Shown piece by piece: positions 6,590-59,449 of a DNA stretch of 64,000 nt (within the stretch, counting starts at the first letter, position 1; each line of letters starts with the position of its first letter). The DNA is from Polytrichum commune (taxonomy: Eukaryota; Streptophyta; Polytrichopsida; Polytrichales; Polytrichaceae): the NCBI GenBank assembly GCA_950295325.1, contig OX485806.1, forward strand, positions 4,216,001 to 4,280,000, read 5' to 3'. Position numbers and translations under genes: made by a program. The notes under the pieces are model-generated. The model worked only from the letters and a program-made list of their open reading frames with translations. It did no database searches and was not told the DNA's origin.

Positions 6590-8558
6590 TCAGTCGGACT
6601 GGCCATCATCAAAGAGATCGACGCACACATCGTCCTGGTTACCGATTCCACCACAGCCGTTCACGAACTCCTCCGTGTCGTCTTGAGCTGAGAAAAATTG
6701 TTTTGCTTTCATCATGAGGACCCTCTTCACCTTCACCGGGAGTTTCTTTTGTCCCTGCATTCAACCCAAGAATTTCTCTTGCAATAAGAAGTACGGAAGA
6801 GCAGGTCCAGTGTAGGCTTCAATTTCTCTTCAAGCTCATCACAATTGGGGATTAGAGTGTTGTTAAGAAAACCCTAACCTAACCTAACCGATCCTCCTGA
6901 GTGATGGATTTTTTTGGCAAGAAGGTAAATTATTATGGAGAAAGGTTTAGGGTACTAGGAATGAGGTTACCTCAAATTCGGCAAACTTGCAGTCTGCGGC
7001 AAGGATGCTGGAGGTAAGATAATCATCCTCGCTACCATCGATGAACACCTTGGCGGCTTGGGCAGGGCTCATCCCATGAGCCTGGTGCAGCTTCACGTAC
7101 ACCTCCTTCGTCTCTTGGTACGTTTGCCCTTCACAGTGAACAACAATTTCACCCGTCAAATTGGTAGTGTCCTATGAAGCCATATATTAGTCATATTCCT
7201 GTCTCTTTCTGTGGCATAACATCGGAGTTGACGAAATGGGTTTTGAGTTTCTGTGTATTTTTAATCAATAGACATCAGTATGAGGTGGTGTACCTAGAAT
7301 GCCATGAACCACTGGAGAGACCTTGATCTGGTTCATTTTGAAGTTAATCTGTGATGTCCACAAGAAGTTCTTAAAATGTCAGAAACTCACCTAAATTCAG
7401 AAGTGAAATCCACACATTCAGTTTTTGACCGATACATTAGTTTTGGTTTTGACCTGAAAATCTTCATGATCAACTTACATAATTGGCTCCAGATCCATGT
7501 TGTCCCGTCGTGGCCTTCATAATAGTAATGTTGAAGTCAAGAACCCCAGGCAACAAGATATGTATGCTGGTGGGGAAGTGGCTGATGGTCAAATCGTTCG
7601 CGGCACTCTTAAATTCGTGAGCTTCAGGTAGCTCCACCTACACAATCGAAACATATCCTCGTCTTGGTAAAAATATGAGATGAATTTTCACTATAGAACT
7701 CAAAGCTGAGCTTCTGAGAGGTATCTCAAACATTGCAGGAGAGGAAATTTCACAGTTGTAGCTCCACATTTTCCTAGCCATATAGTACGGAGAGTCAGGT
7801 GCTAATTGATCTATCACTGACATATCCAACTGTTTATGTTACTCCTATTCGTAATCTTGTCTCTCGACAGTTTTAATTGCAAATTATATTGATTCACATC
7901 AGCTTTTACTAAGTTCTACTACGAGAAACTAGAGTGAGATTGAGAAGTTGAATTTGACAGAGATATGATGATCTTCTAGGTGGTACGGTATTTTGCACAT
8001 TATTAATATCTTTCTCAATTTCCACCATGGCTTACATTGTTAATAAGAACCGCCGGTTGTGCAGAGAATCGGCTTGCATGGGGATGGGCTTGCGCATTGA
8101 CAAGGATGTTATAATCCTCATAAAGGAAAGCAAGCATCGAGATAAACTGTATCACCAGGAGGTCAGATAATTAAATACCACCCAGTCTCTTATTCATGGC
8201 AATTAATAGTTCAACTTCATTGTCTACTGGGTGCATTTCCAGTCGTTAAAGTAGTAAACATCGATCAACTCTTTCGCTTCGTTGAGCCAGATCAATTCAA
8301 TTCTAACATTGTAGTATTTGGGCTAATTTGAAACTTCTTAAAATGGCCACAATGGGTAGTAAAAGTGACTCCTTGATTGTATTGTATTATAATATTTTCA
8401 CTCACTGAGCTGTTCTTATGAAGCCCACGGAAGAGCTGCATGTTGACTTGCAGCTGCTTGTCACTGATGACACAGTAGTCACGGTTTGGTTTCCCGTGGA
8501 AGTCGAACCTCTCCCCATGCTTTCCGAAGAAATGAGGGTCTCCCTCCACAAAGCCCTT
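6590..8558 (-). other. Root-cap / vWD-like C-terminal domain of the chimeric gene (end of exon 13 to exon 18)
   Basis: The segment opens with KGFVEGDPHFFG and RFDFHGKPNRDYCVISD, close to the vWD-like start typical of plant root-cap/LEA-related proteins. It continues through short exons to HGILGQTY and DDYLTSSILAADCKFAEF, which match the family's C-terminal block. Between them the sequence is divergent: the segment of exon 15 and exon 16 lacks the usual Cys/His pattern before the LGQTY motif. The last exon (54 aa) is acidic at its end and has two cysteines (NGCGG, DVCVD). The molecular function of the family is poorly known; a secreted location is inferred from the signal peptide. Confidence 0.75.
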
Positions 8559-11500
8559 GGGCTTGTGTTTATGGGGCTTAGACACTGGGCAATTACATTG
8601 GCAAGGTGGAGGTGCAGCTACTGTGGGTGGTGGGGGAGCAGGCGGGGCATTTTCAACCTGAGCCACTGGAGGATGTGCTGTTGGGGGCGGTCTTGCTAAT
8701 ATGGGTGTGGGCATCGGGATTGGCTGTGGTGCAGGGACTGGCTGTGGTGCAGGCACTGGGACCATCACAGGTGGGGGTGGAGATGGTGGAGGTGGTGATA
8801 GTGAAGGTGGAGGAGGTGAAGGCGGTGGTGGAGAAGGTGGTGGAGGTGAGAGTGGGGGTGATGAAGGTGGAGGTGGAGGTGAGGGAGGAGGGGGATGTGG
8901 AGGAGGGGGATGGCGGGCATGATGGGGGTGAGGTGGATGGGGGCTTGGTGGAGGTGGAGATGGAGATGGTGGGGGTGGTGGAGGAGGAGGAGAAGGTGGG
9001 GGTGGAGATGGAGGAGGGGGGCTAGGCGGGGGTGGAGAAGGAGGAGGTGGCGATGGTGGTGGAGGGGAAGGAGGGGGTGGCGATGGTGGAGGAGGGGAAG
9101 GTGGGGGTGGAGATGGAGGAGGGGGGCTCGGTGGGGGTGGTGAAGGAGGGGGTGGAGATGGTGGTGGAGGCGATGGAGGAGGAGGTGAAGGTGGTGGTGG
9201 AGATGGTGGGGGTGGTGATGGAGGTGGAGGGGAAGGAGGGGGTGGTGATGGAGGTGGAGGGGAAGGAGGGGGTGGAGATGGTGGAGGAGGTGAAGGAGGG
9301 GGTGGAGATGGTGGAGGAGGTGAAGGTGGAGGCGGAGATGGAGGTGGGGGTGAAGGCGGGGGAGGCGATGGAGGGGGAGGTGAAGGAGGCGGGGGAGATG
9401 GCGGAGGAGGTGGAGGAATTGCACATTCCGGAGGTACCCAGTCACACAGCGGAGCTGGTGGATCGGGACATGTTGTGCCTGCAGTACGAAGACCCAACCA
9501 CGAGCAGTTAGGACATCAAAACTCATGGCACACATCAAACGGCATGTCATTCACATCGGAGCCTGGACCATAATCCCAAGGAATTACTCACTCGACAGCG
9601 ACAGCTTACCGTTCAATGGGTTGTCGAGGAACAAATCATCAGAGGGTAAAGTCTGCAACACAATGCACATTGCACACACCCGCTTTGTCTTAGAAAAACA
9701 ACACTCTCATGTAGCAACAATCATCACGGCAATATTGTGAAGAGGAGATTATTGAGATCCCGATAATGTTGTTTGATTGTGATTGTCGAAGTGATTGAAG
9801 GTAGATTCAGAGTTCAATATGCATACGGAGTATTGCGCTTCTTTGCTGGGGCAGAAGTCGCACCGTCGCCCACCGCACAAGATAGCCCAGTCACTCTGGA
9901 AAACACAGCGAGTTCTCACAATTGTGATGATTTCCAGATTCGATCGTGGCAAGCATGGTTGATGATTTTGAAGAACTTTCACTGTCAGATTATACAGCAA
10001 AAGCACTCATGTGATTCTGGAAAGCAATTTGGTCACGTGAGCTCGGTTAAGGCAATGCATACCAGTGCTCTACAGCGAATGAAGGTGGCACTGGCGTGGT
10101 GCTTGACTGCAACCGCGTGGCCATTCTGCAAGCACAAAGGCCGTGGTGGAAATACATCATCAGCTCATGTCAGATTCAGCCGATCATCGTCGGCAATGTA
10201 TGTGAATGACATTCACTGCAATGTGGTCTGGAATTGCCGATGCATGCTCACCTTGTCCATGGTCATGCCGGAGAATTTGGTCATGTAAGCTTTGAACACA
10301 ACCCCTCGCGTCCGACCACGCCCTGCTTGCAGTTCCACGTCCCCGCCGGACATCTGTATTCGGACTACGAGATGGTTAGGTATTTTGATGCAAATCAGCT
10401 TCAAAGATTTTGGGTTTCATCATCAGAGACATAATTGGGGAATTGATTGGGAGGATGGAACAGTATGGTGTACCCCAGCTGTGTTATTCACGAAGCTCGT
10501 CATCTTCACTTGGCCGATCGCACCGCTTGACAGCCAGGCCAGTAAGATTGCCCCTCCGTCTACCTGCATAGCTCAAATCACCCAGTGTCAGACACCCAAT
10601 TCGCCGAACATTGACTAAATGAGCAAAGTACTTCATCAAAAAAACATGGATATTAAAAAAATTATTTCAACTCTTTGGGCATGTTGCATGTTGTGTTTCA
10701 GGAATTGCTGGGATTTGTGGACTTTACTGCGGCGGTGTTGTTGACGAAACTGCAAGTGGTGCACTCAAATTTGGCACCGCCCTGACGCATGCACTGCGGT
10801 GGAGCATCGTCGACGTAGACTGCACCTCCCCAGCTCGCATTGTTGCTCCAGAAAGCAGTGTTCACCACTGTCACGCAGGTGGTGAGGCCGCACTCCTCTT
10901 GCATCTCCGGTGTCTTGGGCATCACATACTCCTCGCTCGATCCCACAAACAGCGCCGCGCCCCTGGAAGCCTGCATTGCGCACATCCATGGACGATTATA
11001 ATTTAGGCCACATACACCTAAATTCAATCAAGTAGGAGGAGGGCATTCAAATGGCTTGTGATCAGGTATCTGTTCAAGTCGCCAAAGGTAGAAAATCGAA
11101 ACTTGCCATGTTCTTCTCGAAAACGCAGCTGCGGATATGGGCCAACGCTCCTGCCTTCACCATCACTGCTCCTCCGCTCCCCTGCTCACATAAACCCCAA
11201 GATCCATACCCACAATATATAAGTTCCTCATAAGTTCATGGCTCCATGGAGAATTTCATATTATATAGGAGGTCAAATCCTGGAGTTTGACAATAAATGC
11301 AGCACTTGGGAGCAGGCACATGCAGATCGAGGAGTGATGATGAGGAGGAGGAGGGTGACTTACAGAGGCAGTGTTGTTGTAGAAGAGGACGTTGAGAGCC
11401 AAGAGCCGGCCACCGCCACCGAGGACGTTGCCTGCCACCAGCACTGCAGATCCTTCACTGCACATGCCTCCGGTGATTTCCAGGTTTTTGAGAGTCAGTG

Positions 11501-12920
11501 TCCCGCTGATGCCTACCACGAAGATCTGGCCCATTCCCTTCCCATCGATCACACATGGGCCGTCAGTGCACGCACCCATGATTGTGATCTTCACGGTCAC
11601 CTCCGGAAGCGGCAACGAGTCTGCACACCAAACTCACCAACACTAAGAATTAGATACCCTCGTTGTGCCAAATTGATCTTTCCATCGATTCATATACAGT
11701 TTGCATAGCTTCAGCAAATATTTGAGAAAATTATATACTACCTGAAACATCGATGTCGTGTTGGATGACAATCTGGGGCTCCATGTCGAGGATGGCCTGT
11801 ACCAGGCAAAGCGCATCCGAGCACTCCGCTGGCCTCGGCCATATCGTCGTAGCTGGAGCATCTGCAAATCCAAAAGAGGTCATACATCAACCTTCACATG
11901 TGATCGTCGTAACCTTCAGAATTGATGAGCTTCAACATAACATCGATCAGATTACCATGTCACCCTATAAGCATGACCAGCGACTTATTCGTTTACGAGG
12001 ATTAATCCATGGAAAAGGCAAGTTACAGCAATGTCAGGATATGACTACGGATTCACCAGTGCTGAAAAACTCCGGTTTAACTGCCTCGCCTTCCTGGTGC
12101 AAAGTGACATGGCAGCCGGCTGTGTGTGACAGCACGGGATAGAACACATGGTTGTAGTGCTTCGAGATGGGCTTCACCAATGCCAGCTCCTTCGAATGGT
12201 GATGATGGCTTTCGATTTCTTTGTAGTCCTGCAGACCAAGCTCAAACACAAGTGATTACGCAGCTGTAAAGGTGATGAAATCATGTCAAATCATAATATC
12301 TTCTTCCCCAACTGCACTAAGTAATCATTTAATCACCCTTGAAACCCATATCTCAAGATATATACGATAATCTGCATAGAGTTTAGAAAAAAAAATTCAA
12401 CGGTCATGCAAAGAGAGAAACCACCTACACAGGTATAGCTGATTCAAAGCTTCCTCTCACCTTATGGTTGTGAGCAGAATTACTTGGCACAGCTTCACGG
12501 TGCAATATGTTAGCGTTGTCCTTCACCGAGTCATGCGGATTCAGCCACGATGCCTCTTGCGGGACAGCTGCACAGGTTTATCAATGTGGAAGATATTTCA
12601 GTGAATTGCGCAAACAGTTCATGGCACTAATTAAGAAGCGAGGTTGCGTCGAAGGGAATGTGTAATATCAAATTGCAGGTCATCAATTCGGCACTGAAGA
12701 ATGCATTCCACACTGGTATTTTGTGCTGAATCAATCAAGGCAAGGTTAGAACATCGACAACTGTTTGTAGTGACAGAAATTCACGCTGTGCCATCGGGAT
12801 AGCAAGCAAGTTGACATTATTGGAAGTGAGATTTTGTGCACCTTGAGCAAGCAGAAGGGTGAAGAGTATCCCAAGTGCTGCTGTCTGTCTGCTGCCTGCG
12901 GCAGCTCGTAGAGGCCCCAT
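6590..12920 (-). CDS. Chimeric secreted wall protein: signal peptide, Pmp-like beta-helix, Ser-Pro4 extensin stalk, root-cap/vWD-like domain (18 exons, 1046 aa)
   Basis: Exons (minus strand): 12920-12842, 12567-12461, 12228-12057, 11861-11742, 11620-11364, 11181-11107, 10970-10728, 10563-10474, 10353-10252, 10125-10063, 9895-9827, 9652-9610, 9478-8406, 8146-8036, 7637-7479, 7348-7294, 7128-6971, 6754-6590; 3141 nt with every phase consistent. Residues 1-26 are a signal peptide (LGILFTLLLAQ). Residues about 120-460 have repeated GGA[VI] and FxxN motifs of a right-handed beta-helix. Residues about 495-710 are tandem SPPPP, the motif hydroxylated and arabinosylated in extensins. Residues about 781-990 match the plant root-cap/LEA-related family, with GDPHFFG, RFDFHGK, CVISD, HGILGQTY and LAADCKFAEF. 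The product is probably an extracellular-matrix protein. Intron 6 uses a GC donor (ATG|GCAAGT). Exon 17's start was chosen because it restores the GILGQTY motif. Exon edges are inferred, not shown by transcripts. Confidence 0.82.
6868..6889. repeat. Short telomere-like CCTAA run inside intron 17
   Basis: The intron between exons 17 and 18 of the chimeric gene carries AACCCTAACCTAACCTAACC, close to the plant telomere unit (CCCTAAA) but with CCTAA spacing. With about three units it is too short to be a telomere tract. It could be a chance run or an intronic telo-box-like element. Confidence 0.6.
8771..9416 (-). repeat. 15-bp coding minisatellite encoding Ser-Pro4 repeats
   Basis: On the plus strand this reads as GGTGGAGGAGGTGAA-like units (15 bp). 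On the coding minus strand it gives about 27 almost uninterrupted SPPPP units, then a degenerate His-containing stretch and a second short SPPPP block. No stop interrupts the run, so purifying selection on the frame is likely. Long Gly/Val/Glu-rich open frames on the opposite strand and in other frames come from the 15-bp periodicity and are not genes. Such arrays are prone to length variation between individuals. Confidence 0.9.
10063..11861 (-). other. Beta-helix portion of the chimeric gene (exons 4-10)
   Basis: Seven small exons encode a repeating pattern. FxxN occurs as FYNN, FEKN, FWSN, FVNN and FVNN; GGA[VI] occurs as GGAVMV, GGAVYV and GGAILL, with SGGDVEL as a variant. The spacing of about 30-45 residues between FxxN motifs fits coils of a right-handed beta-helix, and the GGA[ILV]/FxxN pairing is the known signature of chlamydial polymorphic membrane protein repeats, also found in some algal and plant proteins. 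The region ahead (exons 2-3, residues 28-119) has a four-His run and no recognised fold. Exons 9-12 (residues 382-474) carry further coils and a Cys-rich turn (CGGRRCDFC). Confidence 0.7.
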
Positions 12921-40019: not shown

Positions 40020-41000
40020 CCAAGAAGAAGAAGAACTCCAATCCGTGTGGGGAGGGGCCGGAGTGAATAAAGTGTCTGTTCGTAGGATATCCTTGGCCAT
40101 ACCCCAAGGTAGTGGCGTTGGATGTCATACTACTTCACCCTTTGCAGGGAGTAGACACTATGTGAGTACCTAGTGGCTTTACCGGTTAGCCGGTAACATG
40201 GACTATGGGGGGGGGGGGGGGGGGGGGAAGGGGAGTGTGTTGGGCTTTTAGAGATTTATATATGGTTTTGTAGGTCAGTGGCGGGTTGTCTGTTTTCTAT
40301 CCTTCTTTTATGGATTAATATTGAGTGTGCATATTGTGTGGCGATGATGTTAATTTGTCTAAATGTGTTCCTAATTTGTGATGTAGGGAGTTTAAGTTTT
40401 GTCTCTAATTTTGTCATCGAGGGTATGTGAGTTGTGGCTCTGGCACCTGATGCTAGTACTATGAGTGGGGTTGCGTTCCATCCTCTTGCTTTGATATTGT
40501 TAATGAGTGGTTGATATTTGGTAATTTTTCTTTCTAGTGTTTTTGCAGAGAACCTGTCGTTGCAGTATGTGAATTCTATGAATTGGATAGTGATTTCCGG
40601 TGTAGGTGCTTTTGGTGGTGGGGAATTGTATGGATGGCCTATAATGCATAATATATCGGGTTTGAGCCTGGCATTACAATGACATCTTTGGGTGCCGCAT
40701 GTGCATGGTAGTAACCATGGTGGTACTGTATTTTCTTGGGGGAGTTCATTATATGTGCTTGCATTCATAAGTATGTAGTGTCTTGTTATTTTGTTTGAGA
40801 CGAGGAGTTTGCGTATTTCCCATACCGCTTTGTTGTGTCTGTTTGTTATTAATGCGTGGGTGTGTTGTTGTTTACATTTAAAAAGTACATGTAACCATGT
40901 GTCTGCTTCTAATGAATTGCAAATGGGACCACAATAGATGAATGATGTTCGTGTCATACAATCCGTTTGGTTGTCGAGAGTTCAAGGAGATGATTTTATA
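40020..41000 (-). mobile_element. 3' part of a non-LTR retrotransposon with restriction-like endonuclease
   Basis: On the minus strand this is the C-terminal coding part (40957-40256), a 3'UTR with a run of about 21 C, and a short (TTC)n tail at about 40022-40035. The 3'UTR recurs alone at 35568-35742. Nothing recognisable as reverse transcriptase remains upstream, so the copy is strongly 5'-truncated, as is usual for target-primed insertions. Confidence 0.7.
40256..40957 (-). CDS. C-terminal restriction-like endonuclease region of an R2-type non-LTR retrotransposon (partial, 233 codons)
   Basis: Residues 9-28 form a CX3C-X9-H-X4-C zinc finger (CGPIC...HVLFKC), followed by RHN at 40-42 and an amphipathic segment, then KPD at 99-101 and E128 in IEFTY. 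This order (CCHC finger, RHN, PD, then D/E) is the known signature of the restriction-like endonuclease behind reverse transcriptase in R2-type elements, which nicks the target DNA. An extra CXC-X4-CXC (residues 85-94) precedes the PD motif and could bind another metal. The frame is intact to its stop but is open only about 7 codons before the first Met, so this is a fragment, not a full gene. In an intact element it would be fused to RT. Confidence 0.72.
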   Translation of the reverse strand: MTRTSFIYCGPICNSLEADTWLHVLFKCKQQHTHALITNRHNKAVWEIRKLLVSNKITRHYILMNASTYNELPQENTVPPWLLPCTCGTQRCHCNARLKPDILCIIGHPYNSPPPKAPTPEITIQFIEFTYCNDRFSAKTLERKITKYQPLINNIKARGWNATPLIVLASGARATTHIPSMTKLETKLKLPTSQIRNTFRQINIIATQYAHSILIHKRRIENRQPATDLQNHI

Positions 41001-48858: not shown

Positions 48859-48925
48859 GAAGGAAAATACCACAAATGCAGATGATGAGGAAGAATTTGC
48901 ATTTGCAACGTAATATAAAACGCAT

Positions 48926-50230
48926 TTGATGAGCATTTACAAATGGATTATGGATTCGGAAGCCACAAATCACATGACTTTGCATAAGATGACATTTGAC
49001 ATCTACGAGGTAATTTCTCCATGTAACATGCGCATGGGTGATGATAGCATGACCGAAGCCATCAGAATGGGGTCCTTTGTCATTGGAGTTGAAATGAGAG
49101 GCAAAATGACTAGAATTTGTATCATGGATGTACTTCACGTGCCTAAGTTGCAAGTCGACTTGCTCTCAGTGAGCAAGTTTTTGTCGAATGGGTTGAAGGT
49201 GCAACTTCATGTAATTGTTTGCATTGTGGGAGGTGAAAATGGCAATGTGGTTGCAATAGCTCGACGTGAAGGAAATAAATACCAAATGAACTTCATGGAG
49301 GTGTGCGGAGCGGATGCGGCCAACTTCATGCGTTCATGTGTGGGAGGCGATCCGATGGAGCTTTGACACTGCCAACTCAAATATTTGAATGTGATGAGCA
49401 TTTATGCACTTAAAAGCATGGTGATAGGCATGAATCTAGGTAAAACCTCTCATTCCAGCTCTGCATTGGTTTGAGGATCATGCATGGAGGGTAAGCAATA
49501 TGTGGTTAAATTGTTTGATGATTTGGAGAGGCAAGCAACAAAACCCTTGGAGATTGTGCATTTGGTTGTTTATGGCCCCATGAGAAATATGTTTGTGGGA
49601 GGGACAAGGTGTTTCGTTACTTTCATGGATGATTTTCTGAGTAATGTGTGAGTTTATATGACGAAATTCAAAGGAGAGTGGTTTGAGAGGTTTAAGGATT
49701 TTTTAGCATTTGTAGAAATTCAATCAAAGCATGAAATCAAGGATTTTTGGTGGATAAGTGGAGGGGATTCCATTTCAGAAGATGTTGAAGTATTTTTTTA
49801 TGAAACACAATATTGAGAGCATGCATTGGACCAATGGAGTGTGCAATTTGAACCGTTATTGTAATGGCAAAGCGTATGTTTGAAGCCTTAAAACTCAAAA
49901 AAAATCTTTGGGCAGAAGCGATGACAAATGCAGTTTACACACTAAACCAATGTCCAACGAAGGCCTTATGCTTTGTTACACCCGAAGAAAAGTGAAGCGG
50001 GAGGAGGCCTTGTGTTGCACACATGCGTGTGTTCGGAAGCATTGCTAATGCAATAATTTCATACGAAGAGAGGGGCACGCTCAATGCAAAAGGAAATCAA
50101 ATGCATATTTTTCGGATATTGCAAGGGTATGAAGGCGTATAGATTGATGTATTTGGAGACAAAGAAAATCATAAAATGTAGAGATGTTGTGTTTATGGAA
50201 AATAGTGGGAGCATTAAAAACGATTTGGAG
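48926..50230 (+). pseudogene. Copia protease and integrase remnants
   Basis: 48926-49366 is open and carries the protease: WIMDSEATNHM, where the usual DSGA active-site glycine is Glu, and VLHVPKLQVDLLSVSKF. A pre-integrase block follows (HCQLKYLNVMS, about 49369). Integrase pieces follow to about 49930 with stops and frameshifts (VYGPMRNMFVGGTRCFVTFMDD). The C-terminal SH3-like block (FFGYCKGMKAYRLMYL) ends near 50215. The mutated active site and stops make it inactive. Confidence 0.85.
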
Positions 50231-52051: not shown

Positions 52052-53508
52052 CAGTCTAACCTTGATAATGTCACACCATCCGTTTCACCCAAAAGAGTGA
52101 CATAAACAAGGTGTGACATATTTCATAATGTCACATTTTGAAGATTTGTGCATAATGTGATATTATCAAAAAAAGGTAGAAAATCAAAATAAAATTACAA
52201 TGTAAAAAAGAAAATAACAAATACGAGACTTCAATGTTTTTGAATGTAAAATCTAATTCAAAATTGTGAATAACAACAAGAGTACATCATAATGTGTCAT
52301 TGAGATCAGGTAAAGACCTCTCACTAGAGACAAAGAAGCTTCTAATGTCACATTGTTTTGTTGATGTTAAATGTGCAACACCAATTCTAATGAGTTTGTC
52401 ATGGATTTTTTCCATTCCTAACAACTCCAGAGTGTTGAAAATCTGAGAACCTTGGCTAGCCATAAAATTCAAAACATCTTTAGCATATTTTTGTGCATCG
52501 CTTAGCTTCACTACTTTAGACTCATCATCACTGCTATCAACAATCAATGGGTCTACTTCCATGGAATCAAGAACCTGTTCGTCATCTTGCACTAATTGCA
52601 CAAGCTCCTCAGTAGAATATTCCACCTCAAAATCATCTCCACCTTCCATGTTTATGTACTCCAAAGGACAAAGCATTTCTACAGGTTTGCCTTCGACATC
52701 CAAACCCAAATTCAATGCGGCGATGAGATTGCCCAATTCCAAAGCTGCTTCCTTCATTTTGGACTTCATATGTTCATCAAAATTGTTGATATATGCATTC
52801 CACTCTGTAGGCAATATGGCGGACTTTCTCCAACAATTTATAATGGTTTGATCATCTAATTCATGCCAGAAACAGAGCCGAGAAGGTTATCTCCAAAACT
52901 AGGAAACGAATCAGATGGGCGCCCAAACTAATAAACCAGTGATAAACAACCCTCTAACTTAGTTTATAGATTCTGCTAAACAAAATTGGGGATCTCCCTC
53001 TACTTCCCAAATGTGAGTACCTTCCAGAAACCCCAATTCTAGCTCCGTGAAGCAAAATTCCTTGGTTTCTTCTTCTTCTTCTTGTGCCCACATGCGTGAA
53101 CACCGTGAAAAGACACACAGCTGAACACATGTGACAGAAGGTGGGGTGCATAGGGCCGAGAAGTCTTGACAACACCGTGAAAAGACAACACCTTTGAGTG
53201 TCGTGTATAGACAACACCATTCAGGGGTGGTGCACGATCAAGTTCCAAGAATAGCATTGCATTTATCACAGGGGTGGCGCATGACCCTTTCGGCTACTAC
53301 AATCTGTCCATCCAACCATCACATACAATCCATCCATACTTGGTATTATCACATTTACACTACGGATTTTGGAAAAAAATAGTGACATTACCAAGGGTGA
53401 TAGGGATAATAACGAGGGAGTTTTACACTATGAAAATCGGTTTCAAACTTTTAGGTGACAATATCAAGGTGTTCTATTAACAAGGGTGACATTATCAAGG
53501 TTAGACTG
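52052..53508. mobile_element. pogo/Tigger-type (Tc1/mariner superfamily) DNA transposon, internally deleted (1457 bp)
   Basis: The ends are inverted copies of CAGTCTAACCTTGATAATGT(CAC), flanked by TA on both sides (52050-52051 and 53509-53510). CAGT-starting ends with a TA duplication are typical of pogo/Tigger elements. Subterminal GACATTATCAAGG-like repeats lie at both sides. The interior codes only the last part of a transposase on the minus strand; the CENP-B/HTH and catalytic DDE parts are gone, so it is non-autonomous. Confidence 0.85.
52287..52860 (-). pseudogene. C-terminal fragment of a pogo/Tigger-like transposase
   Basis: The frame begins with DQTIINCWRKSAILPTEW, like the post-catalytic INCWRK block of pogo/Tigger (DDE_1) transposases, and continues for about 180 residues to a stop at 52287. 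The tail is acidic (VQDDEQVLDSMEVD, DSSDDES) and ends SSERSLPDLNDTL. No stop interrupts it, so deletion rather than slow decay removed the catalytic part. The start codon is not meaningful. Confidence 0.75.
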
Positions 53509-54061: not shown

Positions 54062-55539
54062 CAGGCCATAAATTTGACACCCTAGCCAAATTTCCAGGGG
54101 ACACCCTGCTCCAATTTTTGGGTGTCCACATAAATTTCTCTTAAATTTTTTTTTTGTCAAAATAGGTACAATTTTGAAAAATATATAATATCATTTCAAA
54201 ATTTCAATTAAAAATCAAAAAAATCACTACATATCATAACTTGCAATGCAAATCAAACCTACAAGCGGCGGCCTTTCATAGCACACCACTTTACCCATAC
54301 TTGTTCAAAGTCAATGGCCTCTATGGGGATTTTTGCCATTGCAACTCTCATTTGTGCTTCCAAAGTCTTTAATACCAAACTACACTGTAAAGTAGATTTA
54401 ATATGATTTTGAGTAGAAAATCCTCTCTCACAAGAAGCTGTACTAGCAGGAATTACAAGAACAGCTTGCCACAACTTTGTCATATGAGGATATCTTCCAA
54501 CATAGTCCAAATTGGAAGAATAAACCATCCAAGCTTGGTGCATTTTAAGACCACCACATGAAATATGAAGTGTATCCAAAAAACCTCGAAGCTCTGATTT
54601 TAAACCACGCTCATCAAAAAGATTCCCTCCATTAATGCAGAAGTGGTCAATGAAACTCTGAAGCCATAAATGAGCATTTCGATGAAGAAGTGTCAAGTCT
54701 GTTGAAAAACAGACAGGGCTAAATAGCTTAGTTGCATTGAAGAGCTTCAAATCAGGAAATCGTTGCTGCAATGATTCTATCACCTTAACCACATAGGCCT
54801 GTGCAATTAAGTCAGACTTGCAAAGAAAGAATGGACAAGGAATACTAAGCTCGAAAGTCTGGATCTATCACCCACCGTCAAAATATCAACAGATATGTAG
54901 AAGCATGTGATTCAAAGGGAATTGCTCAAAACAGTTTTGGTTGAAAAGCAAGAAAAACTCACATTGGTTGGAAGCAAGAAAAAACTCATATTGAGTGGAG
55001 GATGTGGAGGCACCACGGTGATAGAAACATTTGCCTCGCCATGTTCCTAGTTAGTCTCGCTCTCCATTCACCGTCCTAGCTCCCGGTTACAAAGGAAATT
55101 GCAAGAGCAAAGTTGAACTTAAGTATGTGAGTGAGTGTAGGAAGTTCTCCTACTGTTATGGGTTATGTTTTCCGGATACTTGAGCTGCACTTTATAGTAC
55201 TCAAGTAATACATATCATTTCAGTTTCTAGTGTGTCAATTGACGTGTGATTTTTTTCTTCACAAGTCACAGTACGTGTCAATTTCTAGAATGTGCGTGTC
55301 AATTGACGTGCATTTTTTTTTGTGCAAGTTTTTGCGTGTCAAAAAAGAAAAACTTGCAAAAACTTTGTCAAACATATACGCTGATAGGCCCTACAAGTAT
55401 AGGGGACACCCTGAATTTTTTTTGGGTGTAAAAAGGACACCCTTGTAGGATTTTTGGGTGTCCCCTGTTTGAGATTTGGGTGTCCTAGGACACTCTAGGA
55501 AGCAAAATACACCCCCCAGGGTGTCAATTTTATGCCCTG
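54062..55539. mobile_element. hAT DNA transposon with intact ends, internally deleted (1478 bp)
   Basis: The ends are inverted copies: CAGGCCATAAATTTGACACC at the left, and at the right (read inverted) CAGGGCATAAAATTGACACC. A perfect 8-bp duplication GAGGAGCT lies at 54054-54061 and 55540-55547. Subterminal GGGGACACCCTG / GGGTGTCC units are repeated near both ends, as expected for transposase binding. Only the transposase C-terminus remains inside. Confidence 0.93.
54259..54792 (-). CDS. hAT transposase C-terminal fragment with dimerisation domain (177 codons)
   Basis: The frame is intact for 177 codons and ends 0.2 kb inside the element. It holds the hAT dimerisation block: YPHMTKLWQAVLVIPASTAS, then CERGFSTQNHIKSTL, then the VKWC end. 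It lacks the BED finger and catalytic RNase H-like core, so it cannot be a full transposase; such C-terminal pieces could still bind partner subunits. It resembles the zinc-finger-862-like branch of hAT proteins. Confidence 0.85.
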   Translation of the reverse strand: MVKVIESLQQRFPDLKLFNATKLFSPVCFSTDLTLLHRNAHLWLQSFIDHFCINGGNLFDERGLKSELRGFLDTLHISCGGLKMHQAWMVYSSNLDYVGRYPHMTKLWQAVLVIPASTASCERGFSTQNHIKSTLQCSLVLKTLEAQMRVAMAKIPIEAIDFEQVWVKWCAMKGRRL

Positions 55540-55898: not shown

Positions 55899-58500
55899 TC
55901 AAACACTTAATGCATATCTACCCCGCTTCGGCTTGCAAGCTCTTGAATCTAATACAACTCCCTTGCATGGAAATGATGTCAATGTGAAGTTTTTATGTGC
56001 GAACATGGTTGTAACAAAAGGCAAGTGCTCCATTAGTCGGTTGCGGAGTTTGTTCTTCAAGAACGACACATTGGAGAATGTTCTTTCATCCTCTACGCTC
56101 CCAGGCACCTGCACAATAAGGAGCAATGAAACAAAGTCAGCAAAGAGCCATCATCCACATCAACACGAAGAAATGCATGAGTGATATGGAAACAAAGTAA
56201 AAAATAAATACATAAAAACACCATACCTGGATCATTGCAATTTTTGCGAGTTTAAAGAACTCCGGAAAATTTTCTTTCAAAGGACCATATTGCGCCAAAT
56301 CTTTCTTATGGGATGCACATGTGAGTTAATCGCATGCGAACAATTATTCATCATTGCCGATATGAACTAGTGCAATTGTTGATCAAGCCAACTACATTAA
56401 ACACTATTGGACTAGTTTCATACACAAGTGGTCCGCTTGAAATGTTCATGGGGTGACCAAATATGGCTTTCAAGGTGTTCATGTGAGTTGTGAGAAAATC
56501 GGCATGTCCCGGTTCAAGCCAGAATTGAGGGTACACAATGGAAAGCGCATCCATTACATTTCTTGGTGGAAACCAATTTTCCAGTTCCATCACCATCATT
56601 GTTGCCACATCTATAGTCAACAACCCAATCAATTAGATTTACATACATAGAAAGAAGCAACTAAACTCAAGTTTCTACAAACACAAAAGGGACATGAGAG
56701 AAAGAAGGAAGGAAAAAACACAAAACAAAAAACAAAAAAGGTTTTAGGAATATATATATATACACATATACCTACAACCCAACCTTCATCTCGGCGATGG
56801 CAATATTGAATAACTCATGTGTTACAAATGTCCTCATGTGAGTGACATGATCAATGCATGTTGCATTGAGGTGTGGCCTCACTGAAGGGGACAAATGAGC
56901 CTCAAATACCAAATTCTCAACACAATCATTCACATTTGGATGCCATCTCATGCACATGCTCTCATGTGAGAGCTCATAAATCCTTTTGAAGCATGAAAAT
57001 GCATCACACATGGATGCATTTGGAGAGCAATACAAATCTTGCACATCTTGTACACATAAGTTCAAAACCCTCGTGAAATCACAAACATACATGGAGGGGG
57101 ATTATGCAAAGACAACCAAAGTCTTCACAACCTCTAGAAAGAGTTCCACCCAAACCCAAGTCAATGAACATTTGATGTCAGCCATTAGTTCATATTTTAC
57201 CCTCACAATTGGATTGTTGGCTTCACAAACTTATCCCGTACATCATCACCAAAAGGGTGCGGTATACGGACAAAACGCGTTTTTAAGGGACTTAGTACAT
57301 TGATCCACCTAGTTTTTACAAATTGAAGTATTTTCCTTAGTTTAGAGTCAAGCAATTCAACAAGTTCTTGGAACTCTAAATGAAGTTTTGGAGACTTATT
57401 GAAATGCATGTGCAAGGCAACTAGTAGGGTCTCTATCCTAGACACCATCTTCAATTATGATAGACATTGCAGTGCGAGGTTGTTTCAATGCACCACACAA
57501 TGCATTCCTTGCATGTATGACATATGAAAGAACTACAACTTGGTAGTGATGTCATTCCTCTTCCTTTGTAGCATCAAGGCGTCATTTGCTCCAAATGCCA
57601 CGAATCGGTCCCTAATTTGGTGGGGGTCAGCCCACCTTGGTTAGTAAGAGGACCAACAATCAACATTACAGCCCTTGGTGACATGCTCCAAGGTGAGGAT
57701 TGATGACATTCTTTCCCAATTACAAATCGTGTAAACATGAATGGATATCCATGATTGGTTGTTTAATGTTATTACCTGATCATAAGAGGCCAAAAATATG
57801 AGGCAACACTTACTAATTTCGTTGTCTTTTCTTGCACAACATTTAGCAAATTGTCTGCCATTTATCAACCGGACCCTTTGGTCCAATGCTTTAATGGAAC
57901 CTACCAAGATATTGAACATACATTAGCTAGTAGGTGGATGTTGCAAAACAAAATGGGAAGAATTCTATAACTAGCAAGGAAAGAAGAGGTTATGTTTTCA
58001 CTTTAGGAACGCCAAGGAATTGTAGCATTTCCTTCAAGGAAGGATACTTGGTCATTGGCCTCCCGTATTGCAGTAGGCAAAAGACAACTGCCATTTGCAC
58101 CTCTTTGTGTTTTGGGAGCCCCAACTACATCTAGTGTGGAAATGTTACCCATTGGCATTGCTACAAATGCCTTCTCATCTTTCTTGAGGGTGGAGTCCAT
58201 ATCCCAAAACCACTATCATTTCTTCACTTTCAAGGTTGACAAGTCCATGAGGGCTTTCTCCCAACCTTGGTTTTTTTTTGAGTTGTCATCCTTTGCATGT
58301 ACAATCTTGTCTCTTCTGTTAATCTTGGAGCAGACAATGCACCTCACTTTGTCAAATTTTCCATCACACTCTGGCTCTTGCTCATACCAAGAGTATTCTG
58401 TTGCCCATGTCTTTTGGAACTTGCACCCAAACTCCACAAGGTTAGAGAACAAGAGCAACAAGACCATCCACGGAACCAACAAGATCACCAAGAAGACCAT
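55899..58500 (-). pseudogene. Decayed hAT-like transposase gene
   Basis: Minus-strand pieces in the right order: a zinc-finger-like block (WATEYSWYEQEPECDGKF, then VRCIVCSKINRRDKI) at about 58440-58216; NQSWISIHVYTICNW near 57770; LLDSKLRKILQFVKTRWINVL near 57330; and the dimerisation end SVEDERTFSNVSFLKNKLRN at 56090-56020. Pieces at 57092-56772 and 56632-56351 lie between. Frames change repeatedly. No ends or duplication were found, and it differs from the hAT remnant at 54259. Confidence 0.75.
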
Positions 58501-58735
58501 GAAGACAACCATGAAGACGACCATCGGGAAAAGCATCAATATGACTAGCAACAAAAGCATCAAGATGACAAGCAACAAGAGCATCAAGAAAATCATCAAG
58601 ACAACCATGAAAAAAATCACCAAGATGAGCATCAGGACAACCAAGAAGAAAAACATCAGGAAGAGCATCAAGACGACCAACAACAAGAACGTTAAGACAT
58701 CTAGGATAAAGAACATCAAGACAACAAAAGCGCGA
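58465..58735. repeat. AAGA/ATCAAGA-rich minisatellite
   Basis: Loose 15- and 30-bp units such as AAGACCATGAAGACAACC and AGCATCAAGATGACAAGCAA repeat for about 270 bp. It is open in several frames on both strands (Lys/Thr-rich or Leu/Val-rich), a product of the period rather than a protein. It lies directly upstream of the hAT-like remnant's finger block. Confidence 0.85.
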
Positions 58736-59449
58736 TCAACTTGAGCAAGGTGGCAACGGCCAAAAACCCCTATTTGCAAACCCTACCACCCAATGTCCAA
58801 AGCCAATTCCAAAGCACACAACTTAAAGCCACAATTTTGAAAGAGACATCTAGCAACAAACAAATTCAAGGTGAGCATCCAACGTCCACTCACCTAGATT
58901 CGAAGTTTCGTTCTTGAACTCACGCATTAGCTCTCCATAACTCCCACACTACCATGCACCTCCAAATCCTTGCACCCAACCACACCCACATTAATGCACA
59001 AAAATTCAAATCTACAATCCCAAGTATCAACAACCCCTACCTTAAAGTTACAACCATTGCCCATTCAAGCAGGGTTGGATGATGGAAGAGAAGCGATGGA
59101 TGGGGGTAGTGAAATCGATTGTGGTGGCGATGCATGAGCAACGAGGGAGACGCAACGGGCAAACTTTAAGTGGAGACAAGAGGCAGGGGCCACAAAGGTG
59201 GGCCTGCCACGCGACAGTAGGGGGTAATTTAAAATCCACTAGATCCTTTATTTAATAAGCGGGATTTCGTACCCCATTTTTAGATATAACACTAATGACG
59301 AGATATCGCCCAAATAAGCTTTGTTGGTTGGTATACTTTCTAAGCCCAATGTGATAGTTTGCACAAACCCACGACAATTATCCGAGTCAAAATTTACTTG
59401 CCACTTGATCTATATGACTGAATGAACATTCAAATATATAATCTACCAA

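Follow-up and report, generated by a model that had tools for sequence, protein, structure and literature searches.

A duplicated plant gene predicted to join a Pmp-like beta-helix and a DPH/root-cap domain through a proline-rich stalk

The DNA analyzed here, a window of 64,000 nucleotides (C4:4216001-4280000), carries on its minus strand a gene whose product is predicted to begin with a signal peptide-like segment and to continue with cysteine-rich Pmp-like repeats, a cysteine neck, a proline-rich stalk and a DPH/root-cap domain. A single spliced frame leads from an ATG at 12920 to a TGA ending at 6590. Using a second copy of the gene to guide the joining of exons, we obtained a model of 16 exons and 3012 nt that encodes 1003 residues. 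An earlier sequence-only reading of this DNA had placed the start, the stop and the strand identically and had expected a frame uninterrupted after splicing, all of which the model bears out; its 18 exons, 3141 nt and 1046 residues were not reproduced. The 15 introns span 120 to 599 nt and all end in AG, and their donors are GT except in the intron that follows exon 6, which has GC.

Exon 1 (12842..12920; all exons lie on the minus strand) holds the start codon and a segment that reads as signal-peptide-like, MGPLRAAAGSRQTAALGILFTLLLAQ, in agreement with the secreted-protein start proposed earlier, and a similar candidate exon is present in the second copy. The N-terminal region encoded by exon 2 (12461..12567) has no match, and exon 3 (12057..12228) contributes a His-rich segment with one cysteine (AGCHVTL). 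The cysteine-rich helix, at about residues 120-417, occupies exons 4-9 (10252..11861; singly 11861-11742, 11620-11364, 11184-11107, 10970-10728, 10563-10474 and 10353-10252), and it is followed by a 43-nt micro-exon, exon 10 (9610..9652), encoding TLPSDDLFLDNPLNG. Exon 11 (8406..9478) contains the cysteine neck CPDPPAPLCDWVPPEC and the stalk, together residues 432-722, then CQCNC and, from 8543 down, the initial portion of the DPH domain, GDPHFFGKHGERFDFHG. The remainder of that domain is encoded by exons 12-15 (6971..8146; singly 8146-8036, 7637-7479, 7348-7294 and 7128-6971). Exon 16 (6590..6754) supplies the C-terminal tail, with two cysteines that are matched in the second copy, and the stop codon.

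Searches of the 407.8-Mb assembly (64 contigs) with the head and with the tail identified only one other locus that contains both, on contig C3 (59.2 Mb). This second copy extends to 33743162, counted either from a candidate start exon (33734256) or from exon 4 (33735770), and has the same order and strand as the window gene. Intron phases are equal in the two copies for exons 4-9 and 11-16. The helices share 164 of 289 residues (57%) and the C-terminal domains 125 of 270 (46%), and all 22 cysteines of the window protein that fall in aligned parts have a cysteine counterpart, one of these being in the weakly matched exon 3. By a simple Nei-Gojobori estimate, nonsynonymous divergence (dN) in the helix is 0.35, compared to a synonymous divergence (dS) of 1.31. 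The helix-linker-DPH core is thus present in this genome as a diverged duplicate pair, and the proposal that one gene joins Pmp-like coils to a root-cap domain via a proline-rich stalk gains a second instance with the same order.

The head is assigned to the beta-helices by profile matches, not by a fold. Residues 120-417 match Chlam_PMP with 37.7 bits (cut-off 20.6), and the corresponding part of the second copy reaches 41.5 bits; for NCBIfam POMP_repeat (cut-off 15) the scores are 25.1 and 33 bits. Among solved structures in PDB, the closest by sequence is Rhombotarget A, a weak match with E 0.0014. GGA/FxxN coils had been proposed from the sequence, and both motifs occur far above shuffled expectation. 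Residues 120-431, which comprise the helix and exon 10 (312 residues), contain three GGA[ILV] and six FxxN motifs, the sixth FxxN in exon 10, and four FxxN-then-G[GA]A[ILVF] pairs. In 20,000 shuffles of this region the means were 0.10, 0.52 and 0.004, and the observed counts were reached 2, 0 and 0 times, respectively. The helix of the second copy (301 residues) has five GGA[ILV], five FxxN and four pairs, reached by 0, 1 and 0 of 20,000 shuffles.

FxxN and GGA-type motifs lie in exons 5-8 at positions 239/249, 267/275, 311/319, 346/355 and 376/385; the third letters of the latter vary, and the last reads GGDV. An FxxN precedes its GGA-type partner by 8-10 residues in the window protein and by 8-11 in the second copy, and successive FxxN motifs of the window protein are spaced variably, 28 to 44 residues apart. 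Read from this spacing, the long cysteine-bearing insertions appear to come after GGA and before the next FxxN. We do not class the protein as a Pmp because Pfam scans of both protein ends at E up to 1 found no autotransporter barrel (PF03797). A scan of prokaryote contigs for bacterial relatives of the helix returned 54 pattern matches and no relatives. A whole-genome search with Chlam_PMP gave no matches and missed the window gene too; the model has 19 positions, and this result says nothing about absence.

The neck and linker of the window protein together measure 291 residues and, beyond the first 20, include 190 prolines and 40 serines. Exon 11 contains all 35 SP3-or-longer units, among them 28 SPPPP units in an uninterrupted, perfect series (residues 458-597; 8979..9398) that is also visible as a DNA repeat array, close to the approximately 27 units counted earlier. 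Two further ideas about this segment fared less well. The extensin stalk is present as an SPPPP rod in the window gene, but it lies outside the conserved core, since the linker of the second copy has 106 residues of PAPAP/PPPP type and 0 SPPP. Embedding of the stalk in the wall is possible yet unsupported here: the 291-residue linker holds no tyrosine, so that YXY-type cross-linking, the hallmark of classical cross-linking extensins when it occurs in the repeat region, cannot anchor the rod. By eye, the linker ends of both copies look alike, with VAQ, then a PPPP-T stretch and then CxCNC. The SPPPP block was gained and expanded in the window gene, or else lost in the second copy, and is not a defining trait of the pair. 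An excerpt of PMC5073881 defines chimeric extensins by at least two localized SPPP repeats plus a domain that is not of the hydroxyproline-rich glycoprotein type. The window protein belongs to this class, with its Chlam_PMP and Root_cap matches outside the SP repeats of exon 11; the two copies as a family do not, given 0 SPPP in the second copy.

A root-cap/vWD-like domain at the C-terminus had also been predicted, and the model agrees. With the exon 15 acceptor at 7128 (VHGILGQTYQETK, corresponding to VHGLLGQSYQETK in the second copy), the protein matches Root_cap (PF06830) with 35 bits, over the cut-off of 27. An alternative acceptor at 7171 was rejected: it breaks the frame, and a protein joined there by hand scored 24.2 bits, under the same cut-off. 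The region from GDPH on matches a profile built from three of the seven plain root-cap proteins of the same genome with a probability of 98.7 and E 2.7e-16 over 198 columns. DPH stands at residues 744-746, from where 260 residues extend to the C-terminus (1003), about 55 of them after Root_cap; this corresponds to the DPH domain as a C-terminal region of about 280 residues that starts with DPH and includes Root_cap. A beta-sandwich is predicted for this domain, which is reported only in streptophytes according to excerpted text of PMC10796529. The first 22 or so residues of the tail are similar to vWD domains of Fc-gamma-binding protein; the E value of 1.4e-4 applies to the whole chain and is a sum over repeats of which none is significant alone. 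The domain of the window gene is divided over five exons, whereas among the seven plain root-cap matches, six fall within open frames of 262-275 codons and one within a 152-codon frame.

Several side observations concern these same elements. Plain root-cap genes occur as opposite-strand neighbors at C4:15866005-15866175 (-) and 15870323-15870493 (+), and again at C5:28162648-28162818 (+) and 28164224-28164394 (-); identical scores within the C4 pair suggest a recent inverted duplication. The last intron of the window gene includes a short telomere-like run, CCCTAACCTAACCTAACC, at 6872-6889. Additionally, six dispersed repeat copies (L019-L024; C3:24088212, C2:45042480, C3:2291207, C4:20769082, C4:52344228 and C1:49189853) contain a fragment of the window gene: about 82 bp of exon 7 (about 95%), the last part of intron 7 and the first part of exon 8. 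The source of this fragment in the window is 10538-10640 and 10819-10900, with an internal deletion in the repeat. Five of the copies are 97-98% identical to L019 over a 556-base core, one of these over 402 bases only; beyond the six, the search returned three partial copies (on C5, C6 and C7) and matched the window gene itself twice. An unspliced piece of the gene seems to have been captured and copied by a mobile element.

Elsewhere in the window, transposon remains with a retroelement Pol_BBD domain and a hAT transposase C-terminal dimerisation region lie at 48914-49366 and 54259-54864, and three frames (40256-40981, 52287-52886 and 58007-58744; 241, 199 and 245 codons) have no Pfam match at E 0.01. 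The genome as a whole contains one AUX/IAA locus, with two exon matches (8 candidates scored), and four Radial_spoke_3 matches over the cut-off at two places. We take these to fit a land plant of bryophyte grade with swimming sperm. Because the genome looks bryophyte-grade and thus rootless, 'root cap' is likely a mere family name here.

Comparison of the two copies and of their domains leads us to consider it probable that the window holds a single gene, whose product would be secreted and act in the plant cell wall or mucilage as a two-headed matrix protein. Its function may be that of a matrix scaffold or adhesin. Stacked rungs would form a stiff right-handed beta-helix as the head, and its long cysteine-bearing loops might bind a ligand, which could be a polysaccharide of the wall, a further matrix protein or an extracellular surface. 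Hydroxylation and arabinosylation of the stalk prolines would produce a rigid rod tens of nanometres long, at about 0.3 nm per residue, that keeps the head apart from the DPH domain. The SPPPP run of the window copy would then set a length and not serve as an extensin-type cross-linker. The DPH domain, predicted to be a beta-sandwich in relatives and with a vWD-like start, could self-associate or dock in the matrix. In Penium, a streptophyte alga, the extracellular polymer fraction has been found to contain root-cap-type proteins, according to an excerpt of PMC6027541.

A number of points weigh against this interpretation. The exon borders of the second copy were chosen with the window gene as a guide, and the choices are doubtful at exon 4, which takes a GC donor, and at exon 10, where the best of 110 candidate exons scores 25 and the next 16, and the best again has a GC donor. 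No counterpart of exon 2 was identified in the second copy, where exons 3 and 10 matched only weakly; its candidate start exon, MERHSSAQFRGASATLVILLTLFSEG, ranks fourth by hydrophobicity of the six candidates listed. In the C-terminal domain dN is 0.45 and dS is saturated by the same simple estimate, so the case for selection there is made by the matched cysteines and the dN value, not by a ratio. The Root_cap match of the second copy, at 24.6 bits, falls under the cut-off of 27. For the head, Pfam Beta_helix reaches 16.4 bits in the window protein and 14.7 in the second copy, under the cut-off of 25.9 in both, and structure predictions of exons 7 and 5 taken singly gave mean predicted local distance difference test scores of 40.3 and 50.7, which is very low confidence. 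Even confident predictions of this kind call for care, as AlphaFold2 can yield confident yet unrealistic beta-solenoids (excerpt of PMC11795689). Finally, Pmp-like helices can also serve as simple scaffolds or as enzymes.

The last point leads to the alternative that fares best, in which the beta-helix is a carbohydrate-active domain that cleaves or binds pectin or another polysaccharide and is anchored in the wall through the proline rod and the DPH domain. GH28 enzymes and pectate lyases share the right-handed beta-helix fold. A chimera of GH28 and extensin, PtEXT31, has also been published (excerpt of PMC5073881). However, the helix matches no Pfam enzyme family at E up to 1, and what it does match (Chlam_PMP, POMP_repeat and Rhombotarget A) are adhesin-type or surface repeats. 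We therefore regard a carbohydrate-active head as unlikely.

Somewhat less likely still is a surface receptor or decoy whose Pmp-like head recognizes, or is recognized by, microbial partners. The Pmp coils of Chlamydia are proposed, in excerpted text of PMC10715098, to set binding loops on a common face, and in the alignment of our two copies one cysteine-bearing loop differs in both length and sequence. Against such a role, the Pfam scans revealed no kinase or other signaling domain, and no hydrophobic membrane segment is evident by eye at the C-terminus.

We consider it improbable that two neighboring genes, one for a beta-helix protein (exons 1-10) and one for a proline-rich root-cap protein (exons 11-16), were wrongly fused in the sequence-only reading. 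Intron 9 is the longest of the 15, at 599 nt, exon 10 is weak in the second copy, and plain root-cap genes do stand alone in the genome (7 matches). However, because the second copy keeps order, strand, phases and cysteines at another locus on another contig, including the phases on either side of exon 11, two adjacent genes are unlikely. In the scored candidates (18 at E 0.01 and 12 at E 0.05), the helix is otherwise present only as fragments within a dispersed repeat. In addition, the frame of exon 11 (open reading frame 8292..9515) has no ATG between the upstream stop and the proline block, so a separate exon 11 gene would need its start and signal peptide from elsewhere. A role in freezing tolerance, akin to that of the ice-binding protein of Ancylonema, whose general plan of a beta-solenoid followed by a DPH domain is the same (excerpt of PMC10796529), is very improbable, as Pfam scans detected no DUF3494 and the helix region has one TxT only, compared to the rows of TxT on the Ancylonema ice-binding face.

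With the two-headed matrix protein as the preferred interpretation, we tentatively suggest a broader view, which we hold with less than even confidence: the pair may represent an old, undescribed family in which a Pmp-type helix and a DPH/vWD-like oligomerisation domain form the ends of a proline rod that evolves freely in length and chemistry, so that in plants without roots the rod length would serve as an adjustable ruler in the wall or mucilage. The duplicate pair offers a natural experiment in this respect, with the same heads on a short and a long rod and the extensin rod as the changeable part. Root-cap/DPH proteins occur widely among streptophytes, and an adhesin-like fusion in a rootless-looking genome argues for a role in the extracellular matrix, not in root caps as such.

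How far this architecture departs from known proteins can be judged part by part. The sequence-only reading had known of no chimeric extensin that pairs Pmp-like coils with a root-cap domain. This holds in part: the pairwise fusions have published near-precedents, and we found no report of Pmp-like coils with a root-cap domain, or of the triple with extensin, among the literature matches listed, which leave subscription journals mostly uncovered. Populus PtEXT30, for which the best Arabidopsis match is AtEXT51, likewise combines SP-type repeats and Root_cap in a secreted protein and appears in the same table as PtEXT31 (excerpt of PMC5073881). It has 467 residues, five SP3 units and Root_cap as its sole listed Pfam domain, whereas the window protein has 1003 residues, 35 SP3-or-longer units and, in addition, a Pmp-like head. 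The ice alga protein AnIBP (Ancylonema nordenskioeldii) has a DPH domain behind a DUF3494 beta-solenoid, and with other DPH proteins it shares a C-terminal domain that starts with DPH and includes Root_cap (excerpt of PMC10796529). The window protein differs from it in having a Pmp-like head in place of DUF3494, a proline-rich rod in between and about 55 residues after Root_cap. The LRX, PERK and formin extensins also place a globular part on an SPn stalk, but their globular domains are others (excerpt of PMC4769139). Chlamydial Pmps (PF02415/TIGR01376) share the pairing of FxxN with GGA[ILV] at near-constant spacing, as described in excerpted text of PMC10715098. Unlike them, the window gene is a spliced plant gene whose product is rich in matched cysteines and in which no autotransporter barrel was found. 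The long loops, which in chlamydial Pmps lie between FxxN and GGA according to the same excerpt, would in the window protein lie between GGA and the next FxxN.

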